DNA from: Allokutzneria sp. A3M-2-11 16
GTDB taxonomy: Bacteria > Actinomycetota > Actinomycetes > Mycobacteriales > Pseudonocardiaceae
Direction of reading: 5' to 3'
DNA: 64,000 nt
Assembly (NCBI RefSeq): GCF_024213555.1
Contig: NZ_JANAVO010000001.1
Location: 930,001-994,000, forward strand
Shown: positions 13,656 through 54,234 of the stretch, one piece after another
How positions within the stretch are numbered: position 1 is the first letter of the stretch
Layout of the letters: each line of letters begins with the position of its first letter
The notes under the pieces: generated by a model
What the model was told of the DNA's origin: nothing
Database searches by the model: none
What the model saw: only the letters and a program-made list of their open reading frames with translations
Position numbers and translations under genes: made by a program

Positions 13656-13800
13656 CCGGGTCGCACAGTCTTCAAGTCCCACGAACCCCACCCGCACAGG
13701 TCTTCAACCGCCCCCAACCCCCGGACTGCCAGGGGGGTACGAGGCGGTTGAAGACGGTCGCGGAGGGGGTTGGGCGTACTTGAAGACCGGCGAACCGCGG
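13656..13800. repeat. Long-hairpin repeat family 1, copy A
   Basis: Imperfect inverted repeat of about 145 bases with ends GTCTTCAAGT (13669-13678) and ACTTGAAGAC (13778-13787), plus degenerate flanks of about 12 bases. This copy also has an inner pair GTCTTCAACCGCC (13700-13712) / GGCGGTTGAAGAC (13743-13755), not seen in the others. It ends 3 bases from the stop of the TIGR02569 gene on the minus strand. Confidence 0.9.
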
Positions 13801-13803
13801 CGG

Positions 13804-14598
13804 CTACAGGGTTTCGAGCACCAGGTGTGCCGCGCGGTCGAGGCCGGTCAGCGTCTGCGCGGAGGAGCGCGGGTGCAGCGCGTGCATGGCGAGCCGGTAC
13901 AGCAGCGCGCGCAGCAGCATCTGCGGCCACTCCGGCAGGTGCGCCCAGCGCTTGGTCAGCCCCTGATCCGCTCCGCCCCAGGCCAACGCGTCCACGGTGA
14001 TCACCGCGGCGGCCCACTCCGGCGGCCGCCAGTACGGCGTGAAGTCCATGATCCCGGGCGGCGCGTTGCCCGCGAAGAGCACGTTGCCGAACAGGTCGCC
14101 GTGCACCAGCTGCGAGCGCAGGCGGGTCGGCCTGCGCGAGTTGGCCAGCACCGCGAACATCCGCCCACCGAGGTCCGGGACGAGCCGCGAATCGGCCTCA
14201 CCCCAGGCCATCCGGTCGGCGATGGCGTTGATGTCCTTGCGCGCGTCCAGGAAGTCGGGCCTGCGCAGCTCCACCGTTGCCGCGTGCAGGCGCAGCGACA
14301 CCGAGATCACCTCGTCGTGCCGCGACTCCGGCTGACCGGCGATGTGCCGGGTGGCCGACCACCCGGCGACCACCCACCTGCCGTCGGTGGAGCGCAGCGG
14401 CCGGGCGAGCCGGAGCTGGTCCACCTCAAGGGAGTCCAGGGTCTGGGCGGCCCACGCCGCCTCCGACGGGTCGAAGATCGGTTTGAGCACGACGTCGCCG
14501 CACAACCACGCCGGGCCGCCCGCGTAGGGCTCGGGCAGCGCGGTACGCGCACCGAACGCCGCGCGCACGTGTTGGGGTGGCGGCTCCGGTGGTTTCAC
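13804..14598 (-). CDS. TIGR02569 family protein, aminoglycoside-phosphotransferase-like
   Basis: 264 residues from GTG 14598, the start implied by the mycobacterial homologue Rv3205c and by TAGCGT 8 bases upstream (leaderless pattern, no Shine-Dalgarno). The body resembles APH/choline-kinase-like phosphotransferases: LVHGDLFGNVLFAGNAPPGIMDFTPYWRPPEWA contains the catalytic-loop-like HGDLFxxN and the metal-binding Asp (MDFTPYWR). The N-lobe is short and lacks an obvious nucleotide-binding Lys motif. It always neighbours moeZ in actinobacteria, but its substrate is unknown. Its 3' end abuts repeat copy A. Confidence 0.85.
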   Translation of the reverse strand: MKPPEPPPQHVRAAFGARTALPEPYAGGPAWLCGDVVLKPIFDPSEAAWAAQTLDSLEVDQLRLARPLRSTDGRWVVAGWSATRHIAGQPESRHDEVISVSLRLHAATVELRRPDFLDARKDINAIADRMAWGEADSRLVPDLGGRMFAVLANSRRPTRLRSQLVHGDLFGNVLFAGNAPPGIMDFTPYWRPPEWAAAVITVDALAWGGADQGLTKRWAHLPEWPQMLLRALLYRLAMHALHPRSSAQTLTGLDRAAHLVLETL

Positions 14599-14653
14599 GA
14601 CTCGGCACGCTACCCCGACCCACCGACAGAACGCGGGATAGGCACGGCAGGAG

Positions 14654-14685
14654 AAGGGGCGCTTTTGGCTTAACAAGCGCCCCTT
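14654..14685 (-). terminator. Hairpin terminator after moeZ
   Basis: Perfect 11-base arms AAGGGGCGCTT / AAGCGCCCCTT with a 10-base loop, 9 bases after the moeZ stop on the minus strand. There is no long U-tract, as is common in high-GC actinobacteria. Confidence 0.75.
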
Positions 14686-14694
14686 CGACCACAG

Positions 14695-15873
14695 CTAGTA
14701 CGTCGGCAGGCTCGGGTCGATGTCCCTTGCCCAGCCCAGGACTCCGCCGCCGACGTGCACGGCGTCGCCGAAGCCCGCGCGGTGCAGCGCGGCGAGCGCC
14801 TCGGCCGAACGAGCGCCGGACTTGCAGTGCAGCACGATCGGCCGGTCCTGCGGCAGCTCGCCGAACGCCTCGCCGGAGAGGATCCGGTCCTTGGGGATCA
14901 GCACGGAGCCGGGGATCTTGACGATCTCGTACTCGTGCGGCTCGCGGACGTCGACCAGCACGAAGTCCTCCTTGCGGTCGAACTTCTCCTTGAGCTCGCG
15001 CGGCGTGATGGTCCGCCCGGCCGCCGCGTTCTGCGCCGCGTCGGAGACCACCCCGCAGAACGCCTCGTAGTCGATCAGCTCGGTGACCGGCTCACCGTTG
15101 GGGTCCTTGCGGATGCGGATGGTCCGGTAGGACATCTCCAGCGCGTCGAAGACCATCAGCCTGCCCAGCAGGGTCTCGCCGATGCCGGTGATCAGCTTGA
15201 TCGCCTCGGTGACCATGATCGAGCCGATGGAGGCGCACAGCACGCCGAGCACGCCGCCCTCCGCGCAGGAGGGGACCATGCCGGGCGGCGGGGCCTCCGG
15301 GTAGAGGTCGCGGTACTGCACGCCCTCCGCGCCACCGGGCGGGTCGGCCCAGTACACGCTGGCCTGGCCCTCGAAGCGGAAGATCGAGCCCCAGACGTAG
15401 GGCTTGCCGAGCAGCACGCAGGCGTCGTTGACCAGGTACCGGGTGGCGAAGTTGTCCGTGCCGTCCAGGATCAGGTCGTAGTCGCGGAAGACGTCCAGGA
15501 CGTTGTCCGCTTCCAGGCGCACCTGGTGCAGGTTGACCTTGACGAACGGGTTGACCTCGGCGATCGAGTCGCGGGCCGACTCCGCCTTGGGCCGCCCGAG
15601 GTCGGACTGGCCGTGGATGATCTGCCGGTGCAGGTTCGACTCGTCGACGGTGTCGAACTCGACGATGCCGATCGTGCCGACCCCGGCCGCGGCGAGGTAC
15701 AGCAGCGCCGGACTGCCGAGCCCACCGGCGCCGACCACCAGCACCTTGGCGTTCTTCAGCCGCTTCTGACCGTCCACCCCGACCTCGGGGATGATCAGGT
15801 GGCGGCTGTAGCGGGCGACCTCCTCGTTGGTCAGCTCCGCAGCGGGCTCCACCAGCGGTGGCAGCGTCGACAT
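14695..15873 (-). CDS. moeZ: MoeZ, sulfur-carrier adenylyltransferase/sulfurtransferase
   Basis: 392 residues; ATG 15873 with GGAGG upstream. The N-terminal ThiF/E1-like domain has the ATP-binding GAGGLGSP near 48-55 and the DGTDNFATRYLVND loop; the C-terminal rhodanese domain (about 285-392) has active-site Cys350 in HCKSGARS. Such MoeBR fusion proteins adenylate and then thiolate the C-terminal Gly-Gly of small sulfur carriers (MoaD, CysO, ThiS types) used for molybdopterin, cysteine and thiamine synthesis. Homologue of Rv3206c. Upstream of TIGR02569 on the same strand but separated by a terminator. Confidence 0.93.
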   Translation of the reverse strand: MSTLPPLVEPAAELTNEEVARYSRHLIIPEVGVDGQKRLKNAKVLVVGAGGLGSPALLYLAAAGVGTIGIVEFDTVDESNLHRQIIHGQSDLGRPKAESARDSIAEVNPFVKVNLHQVRLEADNVLDVFRDYDLILDGTDNFATRYLVNDACVLLGKPYVWGSIFRFEGQASVYWADPPGGAEGVQYRDLYPEAPPPGMVPSCAEGGVLGVLCASIGSIMVTEAIKLITGIGETLLGRLMVFDALEMSYRTIRIRKDPNGEPVTELIDYEAFCGVVSDAAQNAAAGRTITPRELKEKFDRKEDFVLVDVREPHEYEIVKIPGSVLIPKDRILSGEAFGELPQDRPIVLHCKSGARSAEALAALHRAGFGDAVHVGGGVLGWARDIDPSLPTY

Positions 15874-15982
15874 GGGTGTTCCTCCTCGCCACATGGGCAC
15901 CGAAAACGTCCCTGCGCTCGTCAACGCCCGTCTTACACGCGTTCTTCCACGTGGACCAGGCATCCCAGCAAATGGGAGCGGC

Positions 15983-17062
15983 TCAGGGGTTCGGCCACGG
16001 GTTGGGTTTGCACGTCTTCCCGTCGGCCTTGACCGCGTTCTTGTTGCCCGGGTCGTTCTGGTTGAGCAGGGCGACGTAGTCGTTGGCGACGCCGAAGGAC
16101 TGCTGCATCATCACCGGCGCGACGCCGTTCTCCTCGGCGCAGCCGCGGTGCTGGTTGCGGAACACGTGCCCGACCTCGTGGTTGATCGCGTAGGTGCGGT
16201 ACAGACCGAGGTCGGGGCCGTAGGCGATCGCTCCCCTGACCCACCTCGCGAGGTTGATGTAGACCCGGTCCTGCGTGCTGTTCCAGCAGGACGCCTCGTA
16301 CTGGATCGTGTAGTTGCACACGTCGGGTCTGCGCGCGGTGTTCGGCGTGGTGAGGCTGATCCGGAAGTCCGGGGCCGGGGTGGTGCTGTCCACCCGCTGG
16401 AGCCGGACGCCGCTGCCGTTCTTGCTGCCCACCCAGCTCTTCGGGCTGCCGAGGATGCCGTCGACCACCCTGGCGAAGGCGTCCTCGCCCTGCACGACCG
16501 AGGTGTCGATGCCGTTCTCGATCTCGATCGTGTAGCGGTAGAGCTTGCCGGTGGTGCCCACCACGCCGGTGGAGCCGCGGACGACGCTGAAGGTGTTCGG
16601 TCCGGACTCGGCGTACTTCTCGCCGGTCTTGGGCAGCTCGGCCGTGGGGATGTTCACATCGATCTTGCCCGGCGGCGCCTCGGCGACCACGGGCTCCAGC
16701 TGCTCGGGTGGCTCCTCGCTGGAGCTGCTCTGCGGTCCGCCCCCGGCCTGCGAATCGGTGGGCGCGGTGCCGAAGTCGACGAAGGCGAGGACGGTCAGCA
16801 CCACCAGCACGGGCAGCGCGTAGACCCGCCAGCCGTAGGTGGCGATGGCCCCGCCGACACCGGGCTTCTTCTTGGCCTTCGGCCGTTCGCGCTGCTCCTT
16901 GGGCTTCTCACCGTGCGGGTCCCAGGAGGCGACGAGCGGCTCGAACTGGGTGCGGCGCTCGCGCCGGACGCGCTGCGACTGCTGGACCTTCTGCGGCCGG
17001 ACCGGACGAGCGGAGCCCCCGTTGTCGTGCGTTCCGCGTCGTCCGTGCTCCGTTCGGGTCAC
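15983..17062 (-). CDS. DUF3152 membrane-anchored zincin-like protein
   Basis: 359 residues from GTG 17062. A basic, disordered N-terminus (RRERRTQFEPLVASWDPHG) precedes one transmembrane segment near 80-97 (VYALPVLVVLTVLAFVDF), then an extracytoplasmic domain. HEVGHVFRNQH (295-305) matches an HExxH zinc-binding core with a third His like metzincins, and several Cys may form disulfides. Family DUF3152, homologue of Rv3207c; peptidase activity is predicted from the motif only. The gene follows the alpha/beta hydrolase with a 53-base gap on the same strand. Confidence 0.85.
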   Translation of the reverse strand: MTRTEHGRRGTHDNGGSARPVRPQKVQQSQRVRRERRTQFEPLVASWDPHGEKPKEQRERPKAKKKPGVGGAIATYGWRVYALPVLVVLTVLAFVDFGTAPTDSQAGGGPQSSSSEEPPEQLEPVVAEAPPGKIDVNIPTAELPKTGEKYAESGPNTFSVVRGSTGVVGTTGKLYRYTIEIENGIDTSVVQGEDAFARVVDGILGSPKSWVGSKNGSGVRLQRVDSTTPAPDFRISLTTPNTARRPDVCNYTIQYEASCWNSTQDRVYINLARWVRGAIAYGPDLGLYRTYAINHEVGHVFRNQHRGCAEENGVAPVMMQQSFGVANDYVALLNQNDPGNKNAVKADGKTCKPNPWPNP

Positions 17063-17115
17063 CGATCCAGATTGCCACAGCCGCCGAGGGGCCCGCGTGC
17101 GCGACCCTCCCGGGT

Positions 17116-18111
17116 TCACCATTCGTGGGCGTCGACCGCTTCGAGCATGCCGAGGAACGCCTTGGCCACCGTCCTCGGCCGCTCCATCTGCGCGACGTGC
17201 CCGGTCCTGGGCAGCACGAGCAGCCTGCCGCGCGGGAGCAGGCGGGCCGTCCGGGGCGCTTTGCGCACGCTGACCAGGCGGTCCTCCGTGCCCCACACCA
17301 CCAGCGCCGGCTTGTCCACCTTGGGCAGCACGGTCCGCCAGACCGACCGGTGCGGCGGCGCCAGCCAGGACCTGATCAGCCCGTACGCGGTCCGGTCCAG
17401 CGCGTCGTTGGCCCAGTGCTGCCCGGCCCGGACGTGGTACTCCTGCTCGGCGAGCGCCCAGCGGCCCTCGGGGATCTCCTCGGTGCTGGCCATCACCAGT
17501 TTGGCCAGCCGCTCGGTGCGCATCCGCGCGGTGATCACCCCGACCTGGCGGCGCATCCTCGGCCCGATCAGCGGCATGTTCATCAGCAGGTAGCGCGGGT
17601 CGGAGACGCGCCGGGGGTCGGGGCGCAGGTCCGGCATGGCGGGCGAGACGAGCGTCAGGGTGCGCACCAGGTCCGGCCGCAGCGCCGCGATCCGCAGCGC
17701 GATCGCCCCGCCGAGGGAGTTGCCGAACAGGTGCACCGGTCCCAGCTCCAGACCGGCCAGGAACTTGATGATCATCGGCACCACGGAGGTGATGTCGTAG
17801 TCGTGGTCCGGCCCCGGCTCGGTCAGCCCGAACCCGGGAAGGTCGATCGCGATACCGGGAAACCTGCTGCCCAGCAGGGCCGCCAGGTCCGTCCAGTTGG
17901 TCGCGGAGCCACCGAGACCGTGGATGTAGAAGGCGGTCGCCGCGCCTGTGGTGCCGCCCTCCGGGCCGGGGGTCTCCCGCACGTGCAGCCGCACGCCGCC
18001 GGAGGTGAGGACCCGGCCCGGCCACCATTCGCGGGACAGGTCGACCTCGGGCAGGGCGGCCCTGGACAGCGGGATCCTGGTCAACGGCGCGCGCTCGGCT
18101 GTCCGGCTCAT
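17116..18111 (-). CDS. Alpha/beta hydrolase
   Basis: 331 residues from ATG 18111 (an ATG at 18141 is also possible; neither has a clear Shine-Dalgarno). The fold is typical: oxyanion HGLGGSATNW, nucleophile elbow GNSLGG, acid in VVWGTEDRLVS, and catalytic His in RTGHVAQMERP. A basic cap domain lies between. The substrate is probably a lipid or small ester but cannot be assigned. Divergent from the FasR-like regulator, which may control it; the 111-base gap contains both promoters. Confidence 0.85.
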   Translation of the reverse strand: MSRTAERAPLTRIPLSRAALPEVDLSREWWPGRVLTSGGVRLHVRETPGPEGGTTGAATAFYIHGLGGSATNWTDLAALLGSRFPGIAIDLPGFGLTEPGPDHDYDITSVVPMIIKFLAGLELGPVHLFGNSLGGAIALRIAALRPDLVRTLTLVSPAMPDLRPDPRRVSDPRYLLMNMPLIGPRMRRQVGVITARMRTERLAKLVMASTEEIPEGRWALAEQEYHVRAGQHWANDALDRTAYGLIRSWLAPPHRSVWRTVLPKVDKPALVVWGTEDRLVSVRKAPRTARLLPRGRLLVLPRTGHVAQMERPRTVAKAFLGMLEAVDAHEW

Positions 18112-18222
18112 GGGACAAAGGATGCCGCGCGGCGGTGACATCTGACTACCAGCGAGTAAGGTCATGACAACCGTGCGGGCGGTGAACCCCGGCGGCACGG
18201 CAGGAGCACGGCTGGAGGCGGT

Positions 18223-18867
18223 ATGACGGAGACGGCGCAGGGCAACGAGCAGGTGGCGCGTGGGGTTCGGCTGCCACGCACGGCCCGCCGGGCGCAGTTG
18301 CTCACGGCGGCGCAGGACGTGTTCGTGGCCAACGGCTACCACGCCGCGGCCATGGACGAGATCGCCGAGCGCGCCGGAGTCAGCAAGCCCGTGCTCTACC
18401 AGCACTTCCCGGGGAAGCTTGAGCTCTACCTCGCGTTGCTGGAGACGCACACCGACGAGCTGGTCCGCCGGGTGCGCGAGGCCATCGAGTCCACCACGGA
18501 CAACAAGCTGCGGGTGCACGCCGCGGTGGCGGCGTACTTCGACTTCGTCGACGGCGAGGGCCAGGCGTTCCGGCTGGTCTTCGAGTCCGACCTGCGCCGC
18601 GAGCCCGCGGTGCAGGACGCGGTGGACCGGGCGACGAGCACCTGCGTCGACACGATCGTCGGCGCGGTCACGGCCGACGCCGGCCTCGACGAGGACCGGG
18701 CGCGGCTGCTGGCGATGGGCCTGGTCGGGCTGAGCCAGGTGACCGCGCGGTTCTGGCTGGACGCCAACCGCGTGGTGCCGAAGCAGGAGGCGATCTCGCT
18801 GATCGCGACCCTGGCCTGGAAGGGCATCGGTGGCGGTTACCCGATGCAGCAACAACAACAGCACTGA
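18223..18867 (+). CDS. fasR: FasR-like TetR family regulator of fatty-acid synthesis
   Basis: 214 residues, GGAGG before ATG 18223. N-terminal TetR helix-turn-helix: [40 protein letters not shown]. The protein tracks the M. tuberculosis FasR (Rv3208) closely along its length ([20 protein letters not shown]-type motif, STTDN, YFDFV, GLVGLS and FWLDAN), and lies in the same neighbourhood between the DUF3152 and DUF3107 genes. FasR senses long-chain acyl-CoA and activates fas-acpS in mycobacteria. The same role here is inference. It has an odd C-terminal MQQQQQH tail. A strong terminator follows. Confidence 0.85.
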   Translation: [214 protein letters not shown]

Positions 18868-18878
18868 CCGAACGGAGA

Positions 18879-18906: not shown

Positions 18907-18915
18907 CATTCGCGT

Positions 18916-29843: not shown

Positions 29844-30032
29844 CCGCGGTTGACCCGTCTTCAAGTACCCCCGACCCCCACCCAGAACATCGCTAACCAC
29901 AGCAGACCCAGCCGCCGTTCGCCGCGCGAACTCCGCTCCGGACGCGCGCGCCCGCAGTGGACTGCCGGGGTTGGGGGCGGTTAGCGATCGCTGGGGGTGG
30001 GGTTCGTAGGACTTGAAGACCGTCACACCGCG
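29844..30032. repeat. Long-hairpin repeat family 1, copy B
   Basis: The longest copy, with termini GTCTTCAAGT (29857) and ACTTGAAGAC (30011-30020) and inner arms ATCGCTAACC (29889-29898) / GGTTAGCGAT (29979-29988); the arms pair over about 52 bases with a central loop of about 60 bases. It fills the space between two convergent genes and may terminate both. Confidence 0.92.
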
Positions 30033-43592: not shown

Positions 43593-43706
43593 GAACCCAG
43601 GCGCCACAAGGACGTTCGGCATCCCGTTCGGGCCAGGCGCGGTGGTGAACCAGGCGTTCGCCGAACACAACCGGTCACCGAAAACCGCCACCCCCGCCGC
43701 AGTAGG
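43593..43706 (-). pseudogene. Decayed C-terminal fragment of a beta-propeller paralogue
   Basis: The translation VAVFGDRLCSANAWFTTAPGPN and the following MPNVLVAPGF match the end of the intact neighbour (VAAFGDRLYLPNARFGTEPGPN..VVAVPRF). The reading frame has lost its stop at the homologous place and has no N-terminus: homology stops at the edge of repeat copy C. It is the remnant of a tandem duplicate. Confidence 0.7.
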
Positions 43707-43843
43707 AGCGTCTTCAAGTACCACCGACCCCCGCCGACGATCACCGCTAACCGCCCCCAACCCCCGCGGAGCTTCCCGGGGTTGGGGGCGGTTGAGGACA
43801 GCAGGGAGGGGGGTTCGGGGTACTTGAAGACCGTCAAACCCGG
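43697..43843. repeat. Long-hairpin repeat family 1, copy C
   Basis: Termini GTCTTCAAGTAC (43710) and GTACTTGAAGAC (43820-43831) with arms pairing over about 55 bases, including CCGCCCCCAACCCC / GGGGTTGGGGGCGG. It sits between the intact propeller gene (stop 8 bases away) and the fragment of its paralogue. Confidence 0.92.
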
Positions 43844-43850
43844 TGGATGA

Positions 43851-44762
43851 TCAGAATCTGGGCACCGCGACGACGTTGTAGGTCACGTTCGGGCCGGGCT
43901 CGGTGCCGAACCTGGCGTTCGGCAGGTAGAGGCGGTCACCGAAGGCCGCAACGGTCGTCGGCACGTCGAAGCGCGGGTCGGTGACCTTCTTGTGCAGAGC
44001 GCCCTTCGCGCCCGTGTGGTCGAGGCGCACCGCGCTGAGCGTGTTGATCCGGTTCTGCACCACGTAGAGCAGGTGTCCCTGGCGCAAGAGGCCGTCGCCG
44101 TTGGTCAGCACGAGCCCGCCGAGGTCGACGAGCTTGGCGTCGCCGGTGCGCGGGTCGACGCGGAAGAGCTTGCCGGAGCCAATGTTGATCACGAGCAGGC
44201 TCCGCCCGTCCGGCGTGGTCTCGATGCCGTTGGCGTTGAAGCCCGCCGCCTGCACCCACTCACCGCCGAGCGGGATGGTCTCGGCCTTCGCGGGTAACTC
44301 GCGGCCCAGGGAGAGCTTGTACAGCACGGCCTTGTGCGAGTCGGTGAAGTAGGCGGCGTCCTCGGTCAGCACGACGTCGTTCACGAAACCGCCGCCGAGC
44401 GGGTACTTGGCGAGGAGCTTGCCGGTCCGCGCGTCGACCACCCGCGCGTCGCCGCCCACACCGCCCGCGATGAACAGCCGGTCCCGCTTGTCGATCTTGA
44501 GTCCGACCGACGGGGTGCCGGTGGGCGCGCTGAGCTGGGCGCCGCGCCCGGTGCGGAGGTCGATCTTGTGGACGGACCCGTCCCTGAGGGAGCCGAAGTA
44601 GCCGGTCGTGCCGCCGATGGCGATGCCCTCGGGCTGGAAGTGGTTGGGGAGCTGGAGCGTCGTGGGGAACGCCGGAGCGTGCTGTGCCTGCGCAGGGATG
44701 CCGAACACCGCGACCAGTCCGGCCGCAGCCACACCGATCGCGAACGCGCGTCGATTCGTCAT
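43851..44762 (-). CDS. Secreted SMP-30/gluconolactonase-like beta-propeller protein
   Basis: 303 residues from ATG 44762, which opens a signal peptide (MTNRRAFAIGVAAAGLVAVF, cleavage near AQA at 25-27). Mature propeller with repeats such as NHFQPEGIAIGGTTGYFGSL, KIDLRTGRGAQLS, GGFVNDVVLTEDAAYFTDS and NGIETTPDGRSLLVINIGSGKLFRVD. The pattern suits SMP-30-like hydrolases or a binding propeller; metal ligands are not clear enough to claim an enzyme. A fragment of a paralogue follows beyond repeat copy C. Confidence 0.82.
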   Translation of the reverse strand: MTNRRAFAIGVAAAGLVAVFGIPAQAQHAPAFPTTLQLPNHFQPEGIAIGGTTGYFGSLRDGSVHKIDLRTGRGAQLSAPTGTPSVGLKIDKRDRLFIAGGVGGDARVVDARTGKLLAKYPLGGGFVNDVVLTEDAAYFTDSHKAVLYKLSLGRELPAKAETIPLGGEWVQAAGFNANGIETTPDGRSLLVINIGSGKLFRVDPRTGDAKLVDLGGLVLTNGDGLLRQGHLLYVVQNRINTLSAVRLDHTGAKGALHKKVTDPRFDVPTTVAAFGDRLYLPNARFGTEPGPNVTYNVVAVPRF

Positions 44763-44842
44763 GCGCCGAACGGTAGGGATCGCCGTGTGAGGTGTGAGTT
44801 GCGTCAAGGCGGAGTGCTCCGTTCGGCCCTAGGCTCTGCCGC

Positions 44843-45523
44843 GTGGTCAAGGTGCTCGCGGTAGCGGACGAGGTCGTTGAACAGCTCTGGACCTCCTACA
44901 TCCAGCAGATAGAGGTCGATCTGATCCTCGCGGCGGGTGATCTCCCCTACGACTACCTGGAGCACCTGAGCAACGCGTTGGACCGGCCGTGCGTCTTCGT
45001 GCCCGGTAACCATGACCCCGACCTGACCGGATACACCAACGTGCGCGGTTTGTGGACGAAGAGCGGGATCCCGACCAGGTGGCCGGGCCCGGCCGGTGGC
45101 GTGAACGCCGACGGCAGGGTGGTGGACGCGGCCGGGCTGCGGATCGCGGGCATCGGCGGTTCGATCCGCTACAACCGCGGGCCGAACCAGTGGACCGAGC
45201 GCCAGCAGGCGCGGCGCGTCCGCCGGATGACCCGGCTCGCGAACTGGCGGCGGCTGCGCGACGGCCGCGGGGTGGACGTCCTGCTCACCCACAGCCCGCC
45301 GAAGGACTGCGGCGACCGCGAGGACCCGCCGCACCGGGGCTTCGCCTGCCTGCACGACGCCGTGCGGAGACTGCGGCCACCGCTCATGCTGCACGGGCAC
45401 ATCCACCCGCACGGCGAGCCGACACCGGATCGTCGACTCGTGGCAACCCGGGTGGTCAACGTCGTCGGATATCACGTCATGGAGATTCCTTCGCGCGGTC
45501 AGGAGGCGACAGATGCGCGGTGA
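44843..45523 (+). CDS. Metallophosphoesterase family protein
   Basis: 226 residues from GTG 44843; TAGGCT seven bases upstream suggests a leaderless mRNA. Calcineurin-like motifs: AAGDLPYD, PGNHDPD (55-60), LLTHSPP and HGHIHPHG. The usual first DxH motif is absent, the first strand reading VLAVADEVVEQ, so the metal site may be incomplete. The stop overlaps the next gene by 11 bases, so both proteins are coexpressed and perhaps act together. Substrate unknown. Confidence 0.82.
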   Translation: MVKVLAVADEVVEQLWTSYIQQIEVDLILAAGDLPYDYLEHLSNALDRPCVFVPGNHDPDLTGYTNVRGLWTKSGIPTRWPGPAGGVNADGRVVDAAGLRIAGIGGSIRYNRGPNQWTERQQARRVRRMTRLANWRRLRDGRGVDVLLTHSPPKDCGDREDPPHRGFACLHDAVRRLRPPLMLHGHIHPHGEPTPDRRLVATRVVNVVGYHVMEIPSRGQEATDAR

Positions 45524-46361
45524 CACCGGATTCCCGCGTGCCGACGCGGAGAACGACTTCATCAGGGCGCGCCGCCGCCAGGTCATGTCCCGGCTGGCGA
45601 AGTGGATGCGCAGGGAGCCGGACGACGTCAACATCATGCTTCCCTACGCCGAGGTCGTCGCCGCCCTCGGCCAGGTGGGCGAGCGGCGGCTCGGGCGCCA
45701 GGTGATCCAGGTCGACTCGATCATCGGCAGCGTGGACCGCACGCGCGACTTCGACCGCCGCTTCCGCCCGACCTCCGGCCGCACCCGGGAGCGGTGGGAA
45801 CGGCTCGCGCTGGCGCAGCGGCGCGGCGAGTCCATCCCGCCGATCGACGTCTACCGCGTCGGCGAGCTGCACTTCGTCAAGGACGGCCACCACCGGGTCT
45901 CGGTGGCGCACGCGCTCGGCCTGCGCACCATCGAGGCGCACGTGACCGAGGTGCGCACCAAGATCGGCGCCTACGACATCCGGTACCGCCACGACCTGAT
46001 GATCAAGAACGACCGCAGGCTGTTCCTGGAGCGGGTCCCGCTGCCCGGCGAGGCGCGGGCCGCGGTGCTGATGAGCGACCCGTGGGAGTACACCGAGCTG
46101 GGCGAGACGGTGGAGGCGTGGGGCTTCCGGCTGATGCAGGACGAGGGCAAGTTCCTGGACCGGCTCACCGTCGCCAAGCGGTGGTACGAGGAGGAGTTCG
46201 TCCCGGTGGTGCGGATGCTCCAGCAGGCGGACCTGGTCGGCGACCGGACCGAGGCCGAGGCGTACCTGCACATCGCGGGCGAGCGCTTCCGGCTGATCAG
46301 GACGCACCGTTGGGACGACGAGGTCATCGACGCGGTGCGCGAGAGCAAGAGACGCAGATAG
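45513..46361 (+). CDS. ParB/Srx-like domain protein
   Basis: 282 residues from ATG 45513 (AGGAGG upstream). A helical N-terminus (RRRQVMSRLAKWMRRE) precedes a ParB/sulfiredoxin-like fold: IQVDSIIGSVDR, IPPIDVYRVGELHFVKDGHHRVSVAHALGLRTIEAHV, where the GHHRV segment takes the place of the ParB GERR nucleotide loop. The rest is helical and unassigned. The family is usually labelled chromosome-partitioning-like but is not ParB itself. Coupled to the metallophosphoesterase gene. Confidence 0.8.
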   Translation: MRGDTGFPRADAENDFIRARRRQVMSRLAKWMRREPDDVNIMLPYAEVVAALGQVGERRLGRQVIQVDSIIGSVDRTRDFDRRFRPTSGRTRERWERLALAQRRGESIPPIDVYRVGELHFVKDGHHRVSVAHALGLRTIEAHVTEVRTKIGAYDIRYRHDLMIKNDRRLFLERVPLPGEARAAVLMSDPWEYTELGETVEAWGFRLMQDEGKFLDRLTVAKRWYEEEFVPVVRMLQQADLVGDRTEAEAYLHIAGERFRLIRTHRWDDEVIDAVRESKRRR

Positions 46362-46371
46362 CGTGAGGGGT

Positions 46372-46845
46372 ATGAGTGGTCTCGGTGCTCGTGTGCTCCC
46401 GCTGCTGGTCCTCTTCGCCGCCGGGTGCGGCTCGGCTCCCGCGCCCGGCTCAGGCGTGGAAGCCGGTCGCATCGACACGTGCGCCATCTTCACCGAGGCG
46501 GACCTGAAAGCGCTGGACCTCGCCCGGGGGCAGCGCATGCCGAACAAGCCGACGGGCTGCATGCTCGGCTCGCCGCGCGGCTTCCGGGTGTTCGCGATCA
46601 ACGAGGACAAGGTGACGATCGCGGACGCGGAGAAGCGCACGCACATCTCCTTCTCCCGCAACGAGGTCAACGGCCGCAAGGGTTTCCTGTCGGTCGGCGA
46701 GCTGACCGCCTGCACGCAGGGCGTGGAGTTCGGCGGCGGCACGCTCCAGGTCCTGGCCAACGTGGCGGGCGCCCAGGTGCCGATGGACGCGTGCGACCTG
46801 GCCCGCAAGGTCATGGACGTCGTCGAGCCCAAACTGCCGGACTAG
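46372..46845 (+). CDS. DUF3558-like lipoprotein
   Basis: 157 residues from ATG 46372, with TAGCGT seven bases upstream (leaderless type). Lipobox at LLVLFAAGCGS, lipidated Cys19. The mature domain contains DTCAIFTEADLKALDL and two later Cys (GCMLGSPRGF, ACDLARKV), as in the DUF3558 family of actinobacterial lipoproteins, which are exported and of unknown function. Family members are abundant in Streptomyces and Pseudonocardiaceae. Confidence 0.82.
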   Translation: MSGLGARVLPLLVLFAAGCGSAPAPGSGVEAGRIDTCAIFTEADLKALDLARGQRMPNKPTGCMLGSPRGFRVFAINEDKVTIADAEKRTHISFSRNEVNGRKGFLSVGELTACTQGVEFGGGTLQVLANVAGAQVPMDACDLARKVMDVVEPKLPD

Positions 46846-46925
46846 GCGGTGTCCTGCAAGTGGTCACCAGCAACCGTCACGCCCCCCGTGCACTCCCCAT
46901 AACGTCAACCAGCGCAGCCCAAAAT

Positions 46926-46988
46926 CCCGTTTCGTACTCAAAACGGGTTTTGGGAGCGCTCTTTTTCCCGTTATGAGTACGAAACGGG
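46926..46988. repeat. Palindromic element family 2, copy 3 (inverted orientation)
   Basis: Arms CCCGTTTCGTACTC (46926-46939) and GAGTACGAAACGGG (46975-46988); the centre reads GGGAGCGCTCT, so it is inverted relative to copies 1 and 2. It lies 80 bases after the lipoprotein stop. Between 46989 and 47095 I see no gene. Confidence 0.9.
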
Positions 46989-47095
46989 GTTCTCTAGACG
47001 GCGCCCGCAGGGGATGGGGTGAGCGGGCGGGTGGGGTGCATGGGTTCAGTTTACGTGGTGTGCGGAGTGCTTGAGGACTTGTAGGACAAGGCCTA

Positions 47096-47238
47096 GCCAG
47101 TTCGCCGGTCTTCAAGTGCCCCGCACCCCGCTCACGAGATCGCCAACGACGACGAACCCGGCTTCGCCGCTGGGGTTTGTCGTGGTTAGCGATGTTTTCG
47201 GCGAGGGTGCGGGGTACTTGAAGACGAGTCAACCGCCG
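47096..47238. repeat. Long-hairpin repeat family 1, copy D
   Basis: Termini GTCTTCAAGT (47108) and ACTTGAAGAC (47216-47225). Both arms carry the same variant (ACGACGAACCC left, ACGACAAACCC right when read inward) instead of the C-rich core of the other copies, so the two arms have changed together. Confidence 0.9.
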
Positions 47239-47256
47239 TGCGGGGATGGATGAGAT

Positions 47257-47270
47257 CTATCCATCGATAG
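47257..47270. promoter_or_regulatory. Palindrome CTATCCATCGATAG
   Basis: Five-base arms around CATC, 35 bases before the start of the secreted hydrolase gene and just beyond repeat copy D. Operator candidate for that gene; regulator unknown. Confidence 0.4.
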
Positions 47271-47305
47271 ACGAAGTGCGGCCCGGTGATCGCGAACCTG
47301 GGGGA

Positions 47306-48673
47306 ATGAGATCACGATTCCGAGGACTGCGCTGTGCGGTGGCCGCGCTCAGCCTGGTACCGCTGATGGCCACCGCGGCGCAGGCGGACGAGGCGGTCCA
47401 GTGGCGGGACTGCGGGGACGGCGTGCTGTGCGGCGGAGTCACCGTGCCCTCCGACTGGGCCTCCCCCAAGCATTCCGAGCCGATCACCGTCAACCTCGCG
47501 AAGCTGCCCGCCCGAGACCAGGCGCACAAGCTCGGCGCGCTTCTGGTGAACCCTGGCGGCCCCAACGTGGCGATCCCGAACTTCAAGCGTTCCAAGGCGA
47601 GTTACGCCGACCTGACACAGTGGTTCGACGTCGTCGTCTTCGATCCGCGCGGGTTCGGCGAGGGTGACGGGGTCAGCTGTCCGACGCCGTTTCCCTCGGC
47701 CGCCGATTCTCCCTTGCAACACAAGGCTTTCACCGACTACCGCAATGCGAACGCGGAGTTCGCCGAGTCGTGCGCGCCGAAGCTGGGGCCACTGACAGGG
47801 AAGGTCAACTCGTGGCAGGTCGCACACGACATGGACGCGATCCGCACCGCGCTCGGTGAGCGCAAGCTCCGCTACTACGGCAACTCCTACGGCACGGTCT
47901 TCGGCCAGGCGTACGCGGAGTTGTTCACGCGCAATGTTGATCGCATGTTCCTGGACAGCGTGCTGGACCACGGAGAACCACGGCTCTTCGAGTGGATGGC
48001 CCCGATGGCCGCCACGACCGAGCGCAACCTCCACCGCTTCGCCGAGTGGTGCTCGGTAACGGAAACCTGTGCGCTGCACGGAAAAGACGTCATCGCGGTG
48101 TTCGATCGCGTGGCTCCGAAAGCAAGCAGCATCCCCGCGCGGGTCGGCGATCAGGCTTCGTCGCAAGCACGGTGGCCCGCGCTCGCCGAAGGACTTGCCA
48201 AGGCAGAAAACGGTGACACCAGCGCGTTCGACAAGGCGCCGTTGCAACCGCCGGACCACAGCCTCGCCCGCGACATGGTGTGCGCGGACTTCCCGTTCGA
48301 CGCCGGATTCCTCGGCCACAAAGCGATCGAGCACCGGCTGCGGTCGGTGGCACCGCGAGTCGGCTGGGCCGATCCGATCTTCGGGATGACCGGGCACTGC
48401 GACGGCCTGCCCGAAATCGGCGTGCACCCGCCGCACCGCATCCGCCCGGCCGGACTGCCGCCGGTGCTGATCACCAGTGGCAGCAACGACACCATCACCC
48501 CGGTCGAGCACGGGAAGCACGTCGCCGCGCAGCTGCCCGGTTCGCGCTACCTACCCGCCTTCGGCGGGCACGCGCTCTACCGGAGCGGGAATCCCTGTGT
48601 GCGCCAACACGTTCACCACTACCTGACCACCGGAGAGCTCCCCGCGCCGACCGCGAGCTGTCCCGCGTCCTGA
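47306..48673 (+). CDS. Secreted S33-type tripeptidyl aminopeptidase-like hydrolase
   Basis: 455 residues from ATG 47306, which starts a signal peptide (MRSRFRGLRCAVAALSLVPL, AQA near 24-26). The alpha/beta fold matches actinomycete tripeptidyl aminopeptidases: VVFDPRGFGEGDGVSC, nucleophile YYGNSYGTVFG (Ser194), acid in ITSGSNDTITP and His in AFGGHALYRSGNPCV. The usual N-terminal W-x-x-C and C-terminal Cys pairs suggest disulfides. It should cleave short peptides or esters outside the cell. Followed by a terminator. Confidence 0.88.
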   Translation: MRSRFRGLRCAVAALSLVPLMATAAQADEAVQWRDCGDGVLCGGVTVPSDWASPKHSEPITVNLAKLPARDQAHKLGALLVNPGGPNVAIPNFKRSKASYADLTQWFDVVVFDPRGFGEGDGVSCPTPFPSAADSPLQHKAFTDYRNANAEFAESCAPKLGPLTGKVNSWQVAHDMDAIRTALGERKLRYYGNSYGTVFGQAYAELFTRNVDRMFLDSVLDHGEPRLFEWMAPMAATTERNLHRFAEWCSVTETCALHGKDVIAVFDRVAPKASSIPARVGDQASSQARWPALAEGLAKAENGDTSAFDKAPLQPPDHSLARDMVCADFPFDAGFLGHKAIEHRLRSVAPRVGWADPIFGMTGHCDGLPEIGVHPPHRIRPAGLPPVLITSGSNDTITPVEHGKHVAAQLPGSRYLPAFGGHALYRSGNPCVRQHVHHYLTTGELPAPTASCPAS

Positions 48674-48686
48674 ACCAGGAACGACG

Positions 48687-48720: not shown

Positions 48721-48741
48721 TCGACGACTACCGGCGAGGAC

Positions 48742-49920: not shown

Positions 49921-49927
49921 GACTCAC

Positions 49928-50773
49928 CTACCCCTTGACCGCGCCGGACGTCAGACCGGCGACGATTCTGCGCTGGAAGAACAGCACGAAAATGATGATC
50001 GGAATGGTGATCACCACGGCCGCGGCCGAGGTGGTCCCCGTTGGGTCTTCGAACTGGCTGCTACCGGTGAAGAACGCCAGCGCGGCGGGAACGGTCCTGG
50101 ACGTCTCGGTCGAGGTGAGCGAGATCGCGAACAGGAAGTCGTTCCAGCAGAAGATGAACACCAGGATCGCCGTGGTGAACACACCGGGTGCGGCGAGCGG
50201 GGCGATGACCTTCTGGAAGGCCTGGCCCGGCGTCGCGCCGTCCATCTTGGCCGCCTTCTCCAGCTCCCACGGGATCTCCTTGAAGAACGCCGAGAGCGTG
50301 TAGATCGCCAGCGGCAGGGAGAAGGTGATGTAGGGCAGGATCAGGCCCGGCCAGGTGTCGAACAGGCCGAGCGCGCGCTCGATGTTGAACAGCGGCGAGA
50401 CCAGCGACACCTGCGGGAACATCGCGATCAGCAGCGAGACGCCCACCAGCAGTTGCTTGCCGGGGAAGTCCAGCCGGGCGATCGCGTACGCCGCCATCGT
50501 GCCGAACACCACCGCGATCAAGGTGGCGATGATCGCGATGCCGATCGAGTTGAACAGCGGCCGGATGAACTCCGTGGTGGAGAAGATCGCGGCGTAGTTG
50601 TCCAGCGTCCACTCGGTGGGGAAGAACCCGCCCTCGCTGATGGCCTTCTTCGACTTGAAGGAGAGCGAGACGATCCACAGCACCGGGAACAACGCGTAGA
50701 CGACAACAACGACGTTGACCAGGCCCCAGCGGGCCTTCTTCCCCGTCGTTTCGGCACCTCCAATGCCGGCCAT
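49928..50773 (-). CDS. sugB: SugB, permease of the trehalose importer
   Basis: 281 residues from ATG 50773, which overlaps the sugA stop by one base (TGATG). Six transmembrane helices of the MalG type: [19 protein letters not shown] at the N-terminus, and the EAA-type loop [36 protein letters not shown]. It ends in a cytoplasmic basic tail. Forms the channel with SugA in the cytoplasmic membrane. Homologue of Rv1237. Confidence 0.9.
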
Positions 50774-51687
50774 CAGCGCTTACCTCCGTTGTCACTGCCC
50801 GGCGCGGCGGTGCCGAACACCTTGATGAAGACGAACGCGATGATCGCCACCGCGACGAAGATCAGCACCGACATGGTCGAGCCGATGCCCAGGTTCAACC
50901 CCTTGATGAGGTTGTTGTAGGTCAGCATCGACACCGATCCCGTGCCCTGCGAACCCGCGGTCAGCACGAAGATGTTGTCGAAGATCCGGAACGCGTCGAG
51001 CGTGCGGAACAGCAGCGCGACCAGGATCGCCGGCTTCATCATCGGCACCATGATCTTGGTGAACCGCTGCCAGCCGCTCGCCCCGTCCATCGCCGCGGCC
51101 TTGAGCATGTCGTCCGGCACCAGGGCCAGACCCGCCATCAGCAGCAGCGCCATGAACGGCGTGGTCTTCCAGATCTCGGCGGAGGCGATGATGGCGAGCG
51201 CGCTCGCCTTGTCGGTCAGCGGCGCGCCGCCGAACAACTCCGCCAGGTAGCCGGTCTCCGGGGTGTAGGCGTACTTCCAGGAGAACGCCGCGACCACGGT
51301 CACGATGCCGTACGGGATCAGCGCGGAGGTCCGCACCAGTCCTCGGCCGACCAGCGTGCGGTGCATGACCAGGGCCAGCGCCATGCCGAGCACGAGCTCG
51401 ATCACGACGGTGATCACGGTCAGCAGCGCGGTGATGCCGAAGGCGTCCCACCAGTACGGGCTGCTGAGCACCGCGGTGTAGTTCTCCAGGCCGATGAACT
51501 CCTGCTTGTCCGGGAACTTCAGGTCGTAACGCTGAAGGGACAACCAGAACGAGTAGATGATCGGCCAGGCGGTGACCGCGATCATGATGAACGCGGCCGG
51601 TGCGCACAGCAGCAGGCCGAGGCGGCGCTCCGCCTTCTTGCCCTCGCTCAGCACGGGCTTCGCCTTGACGGCGGCGTGGGTGCTCAC
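50773..51687 (-). CDS. sugA: SugA, permease of the trehalose importer
   Basis: 304 residues from GTG 51687, overlapping the lpqY stop by four bases (GTGA). MalF-type permease: N-terminal helix [23 protein letters not shown] loop [30 protein letters not shown], six helices, with a conserved [20 protein letters not shown] near the end. Partners SugB. Homologue of Rv1236. All four genes of the operon overlap or abut, so subunit synthesis is coupled. Confidence 0.9.
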
Positions 51688-52991
51688 GGCATGACCCCCT
51701 TGGAGTCAATGGCAGCCTGGAGCTCGGTGCGCAGCCGCGCCGCGGTCTTCTGCGGATCGATGCTCGCCGGCGGGGAGAGAACGGTGGACAGCACCGTGGA
51801 GACGTTCTGCCAGGCGGCGGTCAGCGGACGGTTGGCCGCGTCCCGCAGCTCCTCGCGGATGGTCTCCTTCATCGGGTACTTCTCGGTCATCTCCGGGCGG
51901 TCGTAGACCGACTCGATGGTCGGCGCGACGCCGGAGTTGATCGCGGAGTAGAGCTGGTTCTCCGGCTTGCGCAGGCACAGCACCGCCTCGAAGGCCAGGT
52001 CGGCCTTGGTGGAGTAGGTGCTCACGCCGTAGTTCGCGCCACCGATGGTGACCTTGCTCGGCTTGCCCTTGTCGATGCCGGGGTAACGGGCCCACTTGAA
52101 GTTCTTGGCCAGGTCCGGCTTTTCCTTCTGCATGGACGCGTACACGTACGGCCAGTTCAGCTGGAACGCCGAGTTGCCGCCCTGGAACTCCTTGCGGACC
52201 TCGTCCTCCTGGGAGTTGGTCAGCGAGGCGCTGGCGATCCCTGAGGTGGCGAAGTCCTTGAGGGTGGACAGCGCCCGCACCGCGCCGTCGTCGACGACGG
52301 CGGTGAGGCCGTCCTCGGAGATGATCTTGCCGCCTGCCGAGGCCACCATCGTGTTGTACTGCACGACGAGGCCCTCGTACTGCGCACCGGTCATCACGGC
52401 GGTGTAGGGCTTGCCCGCGGCCTTGAGCGCCTTGGCCTGGGCGATCATCTCGGCCCAGGTCTCCGGCGGCTTGGGCACCACGTCGTCGCGGTACCACAGC
52501 AGCTGCACGTTGGTGTTCTTCGTGGCCGCATAGGTGCGGTTCTTGTAGCGCGTGGACTCCAGCGGCCCGGCGAGGACGCCGCGCTCGGCCTCCTCCTTGT
52601 AGTTGCCGGTCCACTCCCGGATCCAGCCGGCCTCGGCGAACTCGGCGAGCCACGGGCTGTCGAGATAGAGGATGTCCATCTCGTCGTCGCCCGCGGCGAG
52701 CCTGCGCACCATCTGCTCGCGCTGGCCGTCCGCGCCGCGCGGGAGCTTGTTGTAGACGATGTTGTACTTGCCGTTCGCGCTGGCGTTGCAGCTCTCGATG
52801 ACCTTCTCGAAGTTCTCTTCGGGAGCCGCGTACAGGTTGAGTGTGTTACCCCCAGTGTCACCGGAGCCGCAGGCCGCGAGCAGCGGAGCGGTCACCAGCG
52901 CGACCCCGAGGAGCGCTGACGCTCGACTCCGCGAACGGGTCTTGGTTGACGTGGTGGATCGATAGCGGGCACTGCGACCCGGGCCGTCCAT
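51684..52991 (-). CDS. lpqY: LpqY-like trehalose-binding lipoprotein
   Basis: 435 residues from ATG 52991 (GGAGG about nine bases upstream). Lipobox LLAACGSG with lipidated Cys41. Extracytoplasmic solute-binding protein of the cluster-1 type: LNLYAAPEENFEKVIESCN, DILYLDSPWLAEFAEAGWI, GQYEGLVVQYN-like ligand strands, FQLNWPYVYASM and TIGGANYGVSTYS. Homologue of M. tuberculosis LpqY (Rv1235), which binds trehalose. It is the first gene of lpqY-sugA-sugB-sugC; trehalose specificity is inferred from the operon and similarity. Confidence 0.88.
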   Translation of the reverse strand: MDGPGRSARYRSTTSTKTRSRSRASALLGVALVTAPLLAACGSGDTGGNTLNLYAAPEENFEKVIESCNASANGKYNIVYNKLPRGADGQREQMVRRLAAGDDEMDILYLDSPWLAEFAEAGWIREWTGNYKEEAERGVLAGPLESTRYKNRTYAATKNTNVQLLWYRDDVVPKPPETWAEMIAQAKALKAAGKPYTAVMTGAQYEGLVVQYNTMVASAGGKIISEDGLTAVVDDGAVRALSTLKDFATSGIASASLTNSQEDEVRKEFQGGNSAFQLNWPYVYASMQKEKPDLAKNFKWARYPGIDKGKPSKVTIGGANYGVSTYSTKADLAFEAVLCLRKPENQLYSAINSGVAPTIESVYDRPEMTEKYPMKETIREELRDAANRPLTAAWQNVSTVLSTVLSPPASIDPQKTAARLRTELQAAIDSKGVMP

Positions 52992-53312
52992 GTAACCCAG
53001 CCTCCTTCCTCTGAAAAGCACGGAAGGCTTTCGAGGCTGTGGTCACTCCAGCGGCGGCACGAACCCTCGACGACGAGGACTGGTGGATACACCAAGACAC
53101 CTCGTCGTGCCCTCCGACACGAGCGTGAGCCATCGCACACGCCCGCAGGCTGGTGACAGAACCTAGGGCGAGAGTTCCGACTCCCGCAACCGGGTGACGG
53201 CAACGATTCAGATAAGCCCATCGCGGAAAGGATTCAGAAAAGCCTCTGCGCCGGTCACGGTGGGTACGCGCGCGCACATCAACATCAACTCAGGAGAATG
53301 TGAAACAACAAA
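52992..53312 (-). promoter_or_regulatory. lpqY-sugABC upstream region with 15-base direct repeats
   Basis: About 320 bases without a gene. On the plus strand GATTCAGATAAGCCC (53205-53219) and GATTCAGAAAAGCCT (53231-53245) are direct repeats 26 bases apart, in an AT-richer stretch some 215 bases before lpqY. They are the best candidate operator or activator sites for the operon. No known carbon-control consensus is recognised. Confidence 0.45.
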
Positions 53313-53344
53313 CGGGCCACCATTCGTCGCCGAAGGGCGGCCCG
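53313..53344 (-). terminator. Intrinsic terminator of the YflT-like gene
   Basis: GGCCCG (53339-53344 on plus) pairs with CGGGCC (53313-53318), with an inner GCCCTTCGGC turn; on the minus strand the stem is followed by TTTGTTGTTT, one of the few T-rich tracts in the window. Confidence 0.75.
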
Positions 53345-53359
53345 TCGGTCAAGCCCTTA

Positions 53360-53878
53360 TCAAGTCTCCTGGCCCGGGGCCTTCATGGCGAGCTTCGCCA
53401 GGGCGTCGCGTCCCTTCTCCGCATTGCGAGGCTGGCACAGCACGTCGTAGCGCCCTGCCACCAGCTGGCTCGCCGAGACGAAGTCACGGCGACCGCGCGT
53501 AGCCGCGTAACCGAACGCGTTGAAGATCATGAAGAAGATCACACCTGTGGCCAACGCCACAAGAATCGGGCCCAGTTGGAACCCGGTCGAGTTAAAGAGA
53601 CTCAGCAGGATCCCGACGAACAGACCGAACCACGCGCCCGAAGCGGCGCCGGTGGCCAGCACCCGGCCCCAGGTGAGCCTGCCGGTGACCCGCTCGACCA
53701 GCATCAGGTCGACGCCGACGATCGTCACCTCCTGGACCGGGAACGACTCGTCGGCCAGGTAGTCGACCGCCCGCTGCGCCTCCTCGTAGGTGGCGTAGGA
53801 CCCGATCGGCCACCCCGAGGGAGGCGTTGGCAGGCTCTGCGCACCGCCGGCGGGCCTGCCGGAAAATGGACTCGTCAC
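53360..53878 (-). CDS. YflT-like general-stress-type membrane protein
   Basis: 172 residues from GTG 53878, chosen because GGAGG lies eight bases upstream (GTG 53887 has no spacing). A Pro/Gly-rich start, then YATYEEAQRAVDYLADESFPVQEVTIVGVDLMLVERVTG, the heat-induced/general stress protein 17M (YflT) fold, followed by two transmembrane helices (SGAWFGLFVGILLSLF, GPILVALATGVIFFMIF). Homologue by position of Rv1234 next to lpqY. Function unknown. Confidence 0.83.
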   Translation of the reverse strand: MTSPFSGRPAGGAQSLPTPPSGWPIGSYATYEEAQRAVDYLADESFPVQEVTIVGVDLMLVERVTGRLTWGRVLATGAASGAWFGLFVGILLSLFNSTGFQLGPILVALATGVIFFMIFNAFGYAATRGRRDFVSASQLVAGRYDVLCQPRNAEKGRDALAKLAMKAPGQET

Positions 53879-54101
53879 CGTTGTCACCTCCGCGAGCTGG
53901 ACTGGCTCAGAGCTGGACCGGCTCAGAGCTGGCCTCGCTACATGCTGACTCCGATCATCCTCGCCCGCGTGCCGGGCGGGGACACGCGCCCCCCAAACGG
54001 CCCACCCCGGACAACGGAACGGCCCACCGCGGCCACCGCCGCACCCCGGCGAACCGGCCCACCCCGGAGATCAGAACGGCCCACCACGACGACCCCGCCC
54101 A
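53879..54101. other. Intergenic region with short direct repeats
   Basis: No gene is seen. It contains two copies of GGCTCAGAGCTGG (about 53905 and 53923) and several degenerate copies of AACGGCCCACC-CCGG between 53994 and 54085, before repeat copy E begins. The short repeats look like slippage products. Confidence 0.5.
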
Positions 54102-54234
54102 CGGGTTCGCCGGTCTTCAAGTACCCCCTACCCCCGCCGGAACCGTCGCCAACCGCGGCGAACCCCGGGGTTGGGCGCGGTTGACGATTCCGGGAGCGGG
54201 GGTGCGGCGTACTTGAAGACCGTCCTACCCGGGG
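54102..54234. repeat. Long-hairpin repeat family 1, copy E
   Basis: Termini GTCTTCAAGT (54113) and ACTTGAAGAC (54211-54220); arms pair through ACCGCG-GAACCCC. The right end touches the stop codon of the acyl-CoA dehydrogenase gene (54235), so the element forms the start of that gene's 3' untranslated region. Confidence 0.92.

Follow-up and report, generated by a model that had tools for sequence, protein, structure and literature searches.

A dispersed hairpin repeat family just past stop codons in Allokutzneria, a candidate two-way 3′-end module

The 64,000-nucleotide stretch analysed here (the window; bases 930001-994000 of contig C11 of Allokutzneria sp. A3M-2-11 16) carries five copies, between positions 13656 and 54234, of a hairpin repeat of ~145 bp, which we refer to as family A. 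The family is present in high copy number throughout the genome (G000; 8.81 Mb, 43 contigs), lies mostly just past stop codons, most often between convergent genes, and is built from arms with a nearly invariant nine-letter dyad, GTCTTCAAG. Beyond what a first-pass annotation of the window had described, the element has invariant sequence ends, each arm contains two phased units, single arms occur, other genera carry the same arm, and most of the compared sites are empty in a 93%-identical relative (G002). Judging from sequence, we tentatively read family A as a module resembling repetitive extragenic palindromes (REPs), amplified in this lineage, which would be read sequence-specifically and would stop transcription or fix the mRNA 3′ end in both directions; we place this reading a little short of an even chance. 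It gives the impression of a punctuation mark that spreads among gene ends and may stop transcription in both directions.

Arm structure and copy number

Read inward, each arm consists of a GGGTTnGGnn flank, GTCTTCAAG, nnCnnCnnACCCC, a linker of ~10 nt, the inner unit GTCnnnAACnRCnnCnAACCCC and the tip. The two 22-nt units follow one common scheme, the outer beginning with GTCTTCAAG and the inner with GTCnnnAAC (an example of the outer unit lies at 43710-43731 on the plus strand). Their start-to-start spacing was 32 nt in 168 of 180 arms, the others being spaced by 22 (6 arms, probably misassigned), 31 (2), and 33 nt (4), while the two linkers of a single element shared a mean identity of only 36%. 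The kinship of the 12-nt flanks among copies, noted in the first-pass annotation, was borne out, in that GGGTTnGG and CCnAACCC half-sites surround the nine letters. Among 66 ends, the letter directly preceding GTCTTCAAG was G in 42% and C in 40%. Terminal inverted repeats, as expected of miniature inverted-repeat transposable elements (MITEs), are present.

Copies were read in detail in 1.6 of the 8.8 Mb (0.8 Mb contiguous and 0.8 Mb picked for holding listed copies), where 90 elements were compared. With the nine letters masked, 204 arms reached a score of at least 14 in this sample, of which 203 had the exact GTCTTCAAG and one had a single change; the reversed control gave none. The masked matrix was trained on elements picked by those letters, and strongly different arms could be hidden from it; at the scores examined, it revealed no continuum of weaker, decaying arms. 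Their invariance could be accounted for by selection acting on these letters in each copy.

The 55-base arms proposed in the first-pass annotation stood overall, with the qualification that the outer 22-nt unit pairs reliably only at its invariant letters and that it is the inner unit that covaries. In an alignment (A1) of 44 of 49 copies, omitting those of odd length or crossing a stretch border, 12 of the 22 outer pairs were invariant, and the variable pairs at columns 25, 27, 28, 30, and 31 formed in 50–64% of copies. Changes on both sides were found at 14/22 inner pairs versus 3/22 outer pairs, and over the whole structure 121 cells had changed on both sides versus 62 after shuffling. Partner shuffling (n = 33) gave a clear matching excess at eight columns between 35 and 47 of the inner arm and no consistent excess in the flank or outer arm, where a single flank column reached p = 0.03 (uncorrected). 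Of the 90 elements, 54 matched at no fewer than five of the seven variable inner positions, compared with ~20 expected. Because the outer unit barely covaries and the inner helix does, the outer unit behaves as a kept sequence signal, not as a stem, and the inner part as a kept palindrome.

A conserved dyad with hardly covarying outer arms, phased at 32 nt (about three helical turns) and biased to convergent spacers (see below), would also suit a DNA-level site bound by a topology or nucleoid protein and acting where transcription converges, with the RNA irrelevant; bacterial interspersed mosaic elements, for example, are associated with gyrase. We regard this as improbable, given that the inner helix covaries and that most single arms have the sense orientation relative to the stop upstream of them (8 of 10 solo arms, and most arms in G010 and G266, genomes of two other genera), an orientation that a DNA site need not have.

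The strict two-ended pattern (GTCTTCAAGTnC ... GnACTTGAAGAC, 70–100 nt between) matched 188 times genome-wide, and the half-site pattern matched 282 + 286 = 568 times, with 0 matches in the reversed control in both cases. In the contiguous 800 kb, we counted 34 L...R end pairs (at most one mismatch per end) versus 2 L-L and 0 R-L pairs; these 34 comprise 33 distinct elements, one pair bridging two neighbours. The end-pair and reversed-control counts indicate that the window hairpin family is not due to chance, and the whole-genome search that the first-pass annotation had proposed leaves no doubt that the family is far from rare. A covariance model gave at least 150 matches in G000, 42 in the relative G001, and 28 in G002 (both strands); the counts used here lean on the sequence patterns rather than on these matches.

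Under looser pairing, 186 of 202 arms formed 93 two-arm elements, 6 had a degraded partner, and 10 were solo. RNA folds of four of the five window copies (six strands) had z values of -6.9 to -9.3 versus shuffles. Such a very stable hairpin, and the position of several arms upstream of an ordinary hairpin, would fit a pure mRNA 3′ stabiliser that blocks 3′ exonucleases, as has been proposed for REPs, with termination taking place elsewhere. The single-arm copies (10/202 in G000 and several in G010) speak against it, as they lack the long hairpin but retain the nine letters and, in most cases, the usual distance from the stop codon, and we consider a purely stabilising role very improbable. One locus (L187:5295-5564; C11:1450296-1450564) holds three sense arms in tandem with a 68-bp period directly after a stop codon, the last of which closes as a two-arm hairpin; a GC hairpin of ordinary appearance comes next.

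Placement at gene ends, within and beyond the window

Genes were called in the sample with our own codon-usage script (1500 genes, 85% coding). The bias to gene 3′ ends, raised in the first-pass annotation as a point to be checked, proved strong: 56 of the 90 elements lay between convergent genes, 30 between tandem genes, 2 between divergent genes, 2 at stretch edges, and 0 inside called genes, at a median distance of 22 nt from a stop codon. Among spacers of at least 20 bp, 55/189 convergent, 30/576 tandem, and 2/262 divergent spacers held an element (Fisher p = 7e-17 and 8e-4 for the contrasts between classes); since half of the sample was picked for copies, the occupancy figures are biased upward, a bias that bears less on the comparison of spacer classes. 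Of the 30 elements in tandem pairs, 26 were nearer the upstream stop. Measured in the sense direction, the median distance to the stop was 23 nt, with 112 of 142 arms within 60 nt and a peak at 10–40 nt. The 10 solo arms comprised eight called sense to the upstream stop (one of them 934 nt off, inside a called open reading frame (ORF)), one antisense, and one at a stretch edge without an upstream gene call. A GC-rich hairpin shortly past a stop codon, a feature of intrinsic terminators, is thereby present. According to the available part of a survey of 40 genomes (PMC1590033), stem-loops between genes are most frequent on the 3′ side of genes, so a 3′ bias as such is ordinary.

All five window copies were found at the positions given in the first-pass annotation and as described there, and their cores are bounded by GTCTTCAAGT (start) and ACTTGAAGAC (end); no strand is assigned to these two-arm elements. 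Four of the five adjoin a stop codon, as had been claimed, with gaps of 14–34 nt measured from the outermost core letter. The element at 13656-13800 (core 13668-13787) is 16 nt from the stop of the minus-strand gene 13804-14568, and the element at 43697-43843 (core 43710-43831) is 19 nt from that of 43851-44762 (minus). A copy with a long tip, at 29844-30032 (core 29857-30020), lies between convergent genes, 30 and 34 nt from their stops (29826 plus and 30055 minus, respectively), and the element at 54102-54234 (core 54113-54220) ends 14 nt from the stop of 54235-55464 (minus). The exception is the element at 47096-47238 (core 47108-47225).

The dyad pattern was found in 8 of 150 genomes of the family and in 2 of 200 genomes of the order, both from Allokutzneria itself (G001 was outside the order sample). 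With letters 4–6 left free, the arm pattern matched 8 of 249 family genomes, of which G269, G278, and G281 (genus g8) were read as similar peptides, from codons inspected by eye, and dropped as probable coding matches. The remaining matches numbered 204 + 190 in G000, 9 + 7 in G001, 6 + 5 in G010, 9 + 11 in G266, and 1 + 1 in G261; G002 gave 0. A collection of genome contigs, from which our own and very near records were possibly excluded, gave 0 matches to the strict two-ended pattern.

In G010 and G266, the arm again lies mostly just past stop codons. Fourteen of the 19 arms in 13 loci of G266 were sense, 2–17 nt past a stop, and 9 of the 15 arms in 11 loci of G010 were sense at 14–29 nt, as were 4/4 arms at 0–26 nt in four further G010 loci. 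Single loci were found sense at 15 nt in G245, in a divergent spacer in G238, and inside a called ORF in G261, in which two further loci held one arm sense at 19 nt and one inside. With letters 4–6 free, GTCTTCAAG was found in 16/16 matches in G001 and 10/11 in G010, and G266 had GTCTCCAAG in all 16 matches listed, of 20. A more far-reaching interpretation would be a 3′-end code locked to the stop codon, in which a nine-letter signal with a lineage dialect (GTCTTCAAG, replaced in another genus mainly by GTCTCCAAG), set at a 32-nt phase from the second unit, would have a dedicated reader that ends transcription or matures the mRNA both ways, with whole modules inserted at gene ends and selection at every copy; we consider this full scheme unlikely.

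Other repeats share the spacers of G000. A family B hairpin copy (CCCGTTTCGTACTC...), with no strand assigned, lies at 46923-46991, beside the 47096 element and outside family A. The halves of family B (CCCGTTTCGTACTCnnnACGGG, at most one mismatch) matched 193 + 200 times in G000, 36 + 46 times in G001, and 0 times in G002, G010, and G266. In the 1.6 Mb, they formed 39 clusters, 28 of them convergent and 4 within 400 bp of an A arm, and A or B letters were present in 89/189 convergent spacers. A distinct hairpin-like repeat, built around GAATGAGTCATTC...GATGACTCATTC, occurs in G002 at four places in 360 kb (C1 near 5337300, 5429400, 5442420, and 5474270); as judged by eye, two of these lie at the ends of called genes or close to them. 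The palindrome CCACWGTGGAC is also frequent in that stretch, seemingly inside genes as well.

Gain, loss, and a possible role at gene ends

Flanking genes of G000 and G002 are 93% identical, as are 91 unoccupied spacers. Among spacers without an A arm, 138/168 agreed within 10 bp in length, and of the 16 spacers with an A arm, 15 were longer by at least 80 bp in G000 and one was longer in G002. The median extra length in G000 was 135.5 bp for convergent (n = 10) and 158.5 bp for tandem spacers (n = 6), and we propose that gains and losses of copies involve entire modules of about 140–200 bp. None of the five window elements is present in G002, and the sites at 43697 and 54102 are cleanly empty in G001 too; at the 47096 site, G001 has different DNA, including the next gene. 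Empty sites in relatives, as known for MITEs, are therefore present, with one of the 16 G002 spacers retaining a degenerate half-element that outscored each of the 167 control spacers. Averaged over all 16, the G002 spacers did not score above length-matched controls (p = 0.11). With remnants in just this one spacer, decay in G002 rather than gain is disfavoured, and the scores point mostly to gain or complete loss; the degenerate half-element implies that at least one site predates the split of G000 and G002.

Among the 90 copies, identity was 0.864 for the closest pair, with medians of 0.82 for nearest neighbours and 0.74 for all pairs. Since the best pair falls below the 93% between unoccupied spacers, there is no plainly recent copying in this sample, whose copies differ more than simple copying since the split would produce. 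The sampled copies may be older than the split and lost in G002, may have been diversified by recombination among copies (top pairs have linker and tip haplotypes in common), or may have come from outside. This poses a puzzle: the family is all but missing from a close relative, and the sampled copies include neither near-identical nor decayed ones.

Searches for a mover or a known source gave little. None of the five best left/right flank cells exceeded the shuffled maximum for a target duplication, and the largest same-copy excess was small; the exact borders are unclear, and an oddly placed duplication could escape this test. A Y1 (IS200/IS605-type) transposase (PF01797), the only transposase family searched, had 0 matches in G000, G001, G002, G010, and G266, with positive results in 5/14 well-known genomes searched as a control. 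As regards an autonomous partner with the same ends, one facing pair among the arms of the 1.6 of 8.8 Mb read, with Y1 as the sole transposase search, flanks a small ORF: outside the window, at C11:926154-926670, two facing A arms 517 bp apart enclose the called ORF 926209-926562 (minus). A plasmid or phage origin was rejected after one copy (43690-43850) found no match in plasmid and phage collections, and nothing in the window reached the Rfam gathering threshold, so these searches matched the repeat to nothing catalogued, in keeping with the first-pass annotation. The only Rfam overlap with an element, a sub-threshold mir-1260b hit in 43600-47300 (22.5 versus 81 bits, E = 0.42), was taken as chance.

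The length differences from G002, the two sites cleanly empty in G001, the linker and tip haplotypes, and the similar placement of family B (28/39 clusters convergent) are what a selfish, transposase-dependent MITE- or REP-like repeat would produce, its placement reflecting harmless insertion sites and its nine letters the recognition site of the mover. Such a repeat does not readily account for a best pair below the identity of the unoccupied spacers, for the lack of weaker, decaying arms and of a target duplication, or for the missing Y1 transposase (other types were not searched). In addition, the degenerate half-element means that not every site is a new insertion, and 14/19 arms oriented 2–17 nt after stops in G266 go beyond what tolerance alone predicts. 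We consider such a selfish repeat unlikely, although a serious competitor.

A terminator or 3′-end role, as suggested in the first-pass annotation, is plausible, and on our preferred reading family A would probably be a bidirectional terminator or 3′-end boundary read by a sequence-specific factor. The working unit would be one oriented arm, namely the GTCTTCAAG-centred dyad with the second GTCnnnAAC unit at a distance of 32 nt, its sense strand rich in C, usually set just past a stop codon. In G000, two arms usually face each other, one per converging gene, an arrangement that gives either transcript a long imperfect hairpin. The nine letters would be read sequence-specifically, on DNA or nascent RNA, by a factor of the host, either a protein or an RNA that pairs with them, and this reading together with the inner hairpin would stop transcription, or fix and protect the mRNA 3′ end, in both directions. 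From the patterns above, we infer such a reader and its effect on termination or 3′-end protection, an origin of the copies by insertion, and selection that keeps the letters. This two-way, sequence-read module is favoured because sequence, spacing, and stop distance are conserved and because single arms keep them. Pure stabilisation would be less likely than termination, given that elements are found most often at convergent pairs and that an arm by itself does not form the long hairpin. Terminators with a T-run are often missing from high-GC actinobacteria, in which the ending of transcription between converging genes is not settled. With 55/189 convergent spacers occupied in the sampled stretches, an invariant core, a fixed spacing, and a letter change in another genus, family A offers a handle on this function and any reader.

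Several observations weigh against a 3′-end module. The 93%-identical relative G002 has only 13 half-sites, which makes the element dispensable, and neutral tolerance of insertions at gene ends would yield part of the 3′ bias. Inspection by eye of the listed copies showed no T-run after ACTTGAAGAC, which means that family A is no intrinsic terminator of the classical type, and an ordinary GC hairpin stands beside some arms (L179, L184, L194, L187, and site 1105358; by eye), where family A may therefore not be the terminator. Individual placements also fit poorly: the two divergent copies; the solo arm L209:15094, within a called 2-kb ORF (14157-16187; a gene-call error or an arm in a gene); and the window element at 47096, which lies 262 nt past a stop and 20 nt ahead of the ATG of ORF 47246-48673 (plus), for which our gene caller picked 47339 as the start. 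In the other genomes, 5/19 arms in G266 and 4/15 in G010 were not sense to an upstream stop, 2 further G010 arms were sense at 46 and 61 nt, and G001 was looser, with 10 arms in five loci divided into 3 sense at 13, 24, and 44 nt, 4 sense at 84, 189, 246, and 568 nt, and 3 not sense (one more arm lay at a contig edge). The dialect is not absolute either, as one G010 arm has GTCTTGAAG and two further dyads of G266 read GTCTTCAAG, one of which (L175) was found next to a diverged second unit.

Comparison with known systems

The first-pass annotation's term REP/MITE-like stands as far as it denotes a high-copy, 3′-biased hairpin family; a strict REP would call for a Y1 transposase of the RAYT type (REP-associated tyrosine transposase) and a strict MITE for a target duplication, and neither was detected. 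No description of such a family was found among the open-licence papers listed on actinobacterial or Pseudonocardiaceae repeats, convergent genes and palindromes in Actinobacteria, REPINs (REP doublets forming hairpins) and RAYTs, or bidirectional terminators, and among the titles listed for the end sequence none concerned bacterial repeats of this kind.

ERIC, Correia, and RUP elements are MITE-type, palindromic, intergenic, and noncoding repeats of 100–200 bp with lineage-specific abundance. Family A resembles them in these traits and differs in its orientation after stops and in having no detected target duplication and, among the 90 copies, no near-identical ones. The MIRU repeats of mycobacteria are dispersed actinobacterial repeats at stop codons, direct rather than two-arm hairpins; compared by description only, they are like family A in placement and unlike it in structure. 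Bidirectional intrinsic terminators place a hairpin shortly past the stop between convergent genes, usable both ways, whereas family A has no T-run and is a repeat with an invariant nine-letter core and a fixed internal spacing.

Family A also resembles REPs and REPINs with RAYTs, which in the available text of Bertels and Rainey 2011 (PMC3116915) also appear as hundreds of extragenic copies, inverted hairpin doublets, and conserved ends that enclose variable interiors. Family A likewise consists of inverted doublets that lie outside genes and form a hairpin (0/90 elements within called genes), but it has no Y1/RAYT gene in the five genomes searched, on which ground REP/RAYT membership was rejected; each arm has two phased 22-nt units, and the outer unit is conserved as sequence rather than as a stem. 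REPIN doublets are described in the same text as randomly distributed in extragenic space, whereas family A lies mostly just past stop codons.

CGTC-tagged REPs, as far as the available text of PMC3733652 describes them, share with family A the high-copy palindromes, the predominance of head-to-head dimers, and a GTC at the end, and are said there to have no dedicated transposase. They have stems of 8–9 bp, loops of 4–5 nt, and a CCA-like tail, and the five phyla listed in that text do not include Actinobacteria, a name that is absent from the text searched. Instead of an unpaired GTAG or CGTC tag on a palindrome of 20–40 bp, family A ends in GTCTTCAAG, preceded by G or C in the proportions given above, and spans the ~145 bp of the whole element. 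Overall, family A would work like a REP/REPIN or a bidirectional terminator and departs from each in a defining feature, and we therefore class it as a dispersed hairpin repeat.

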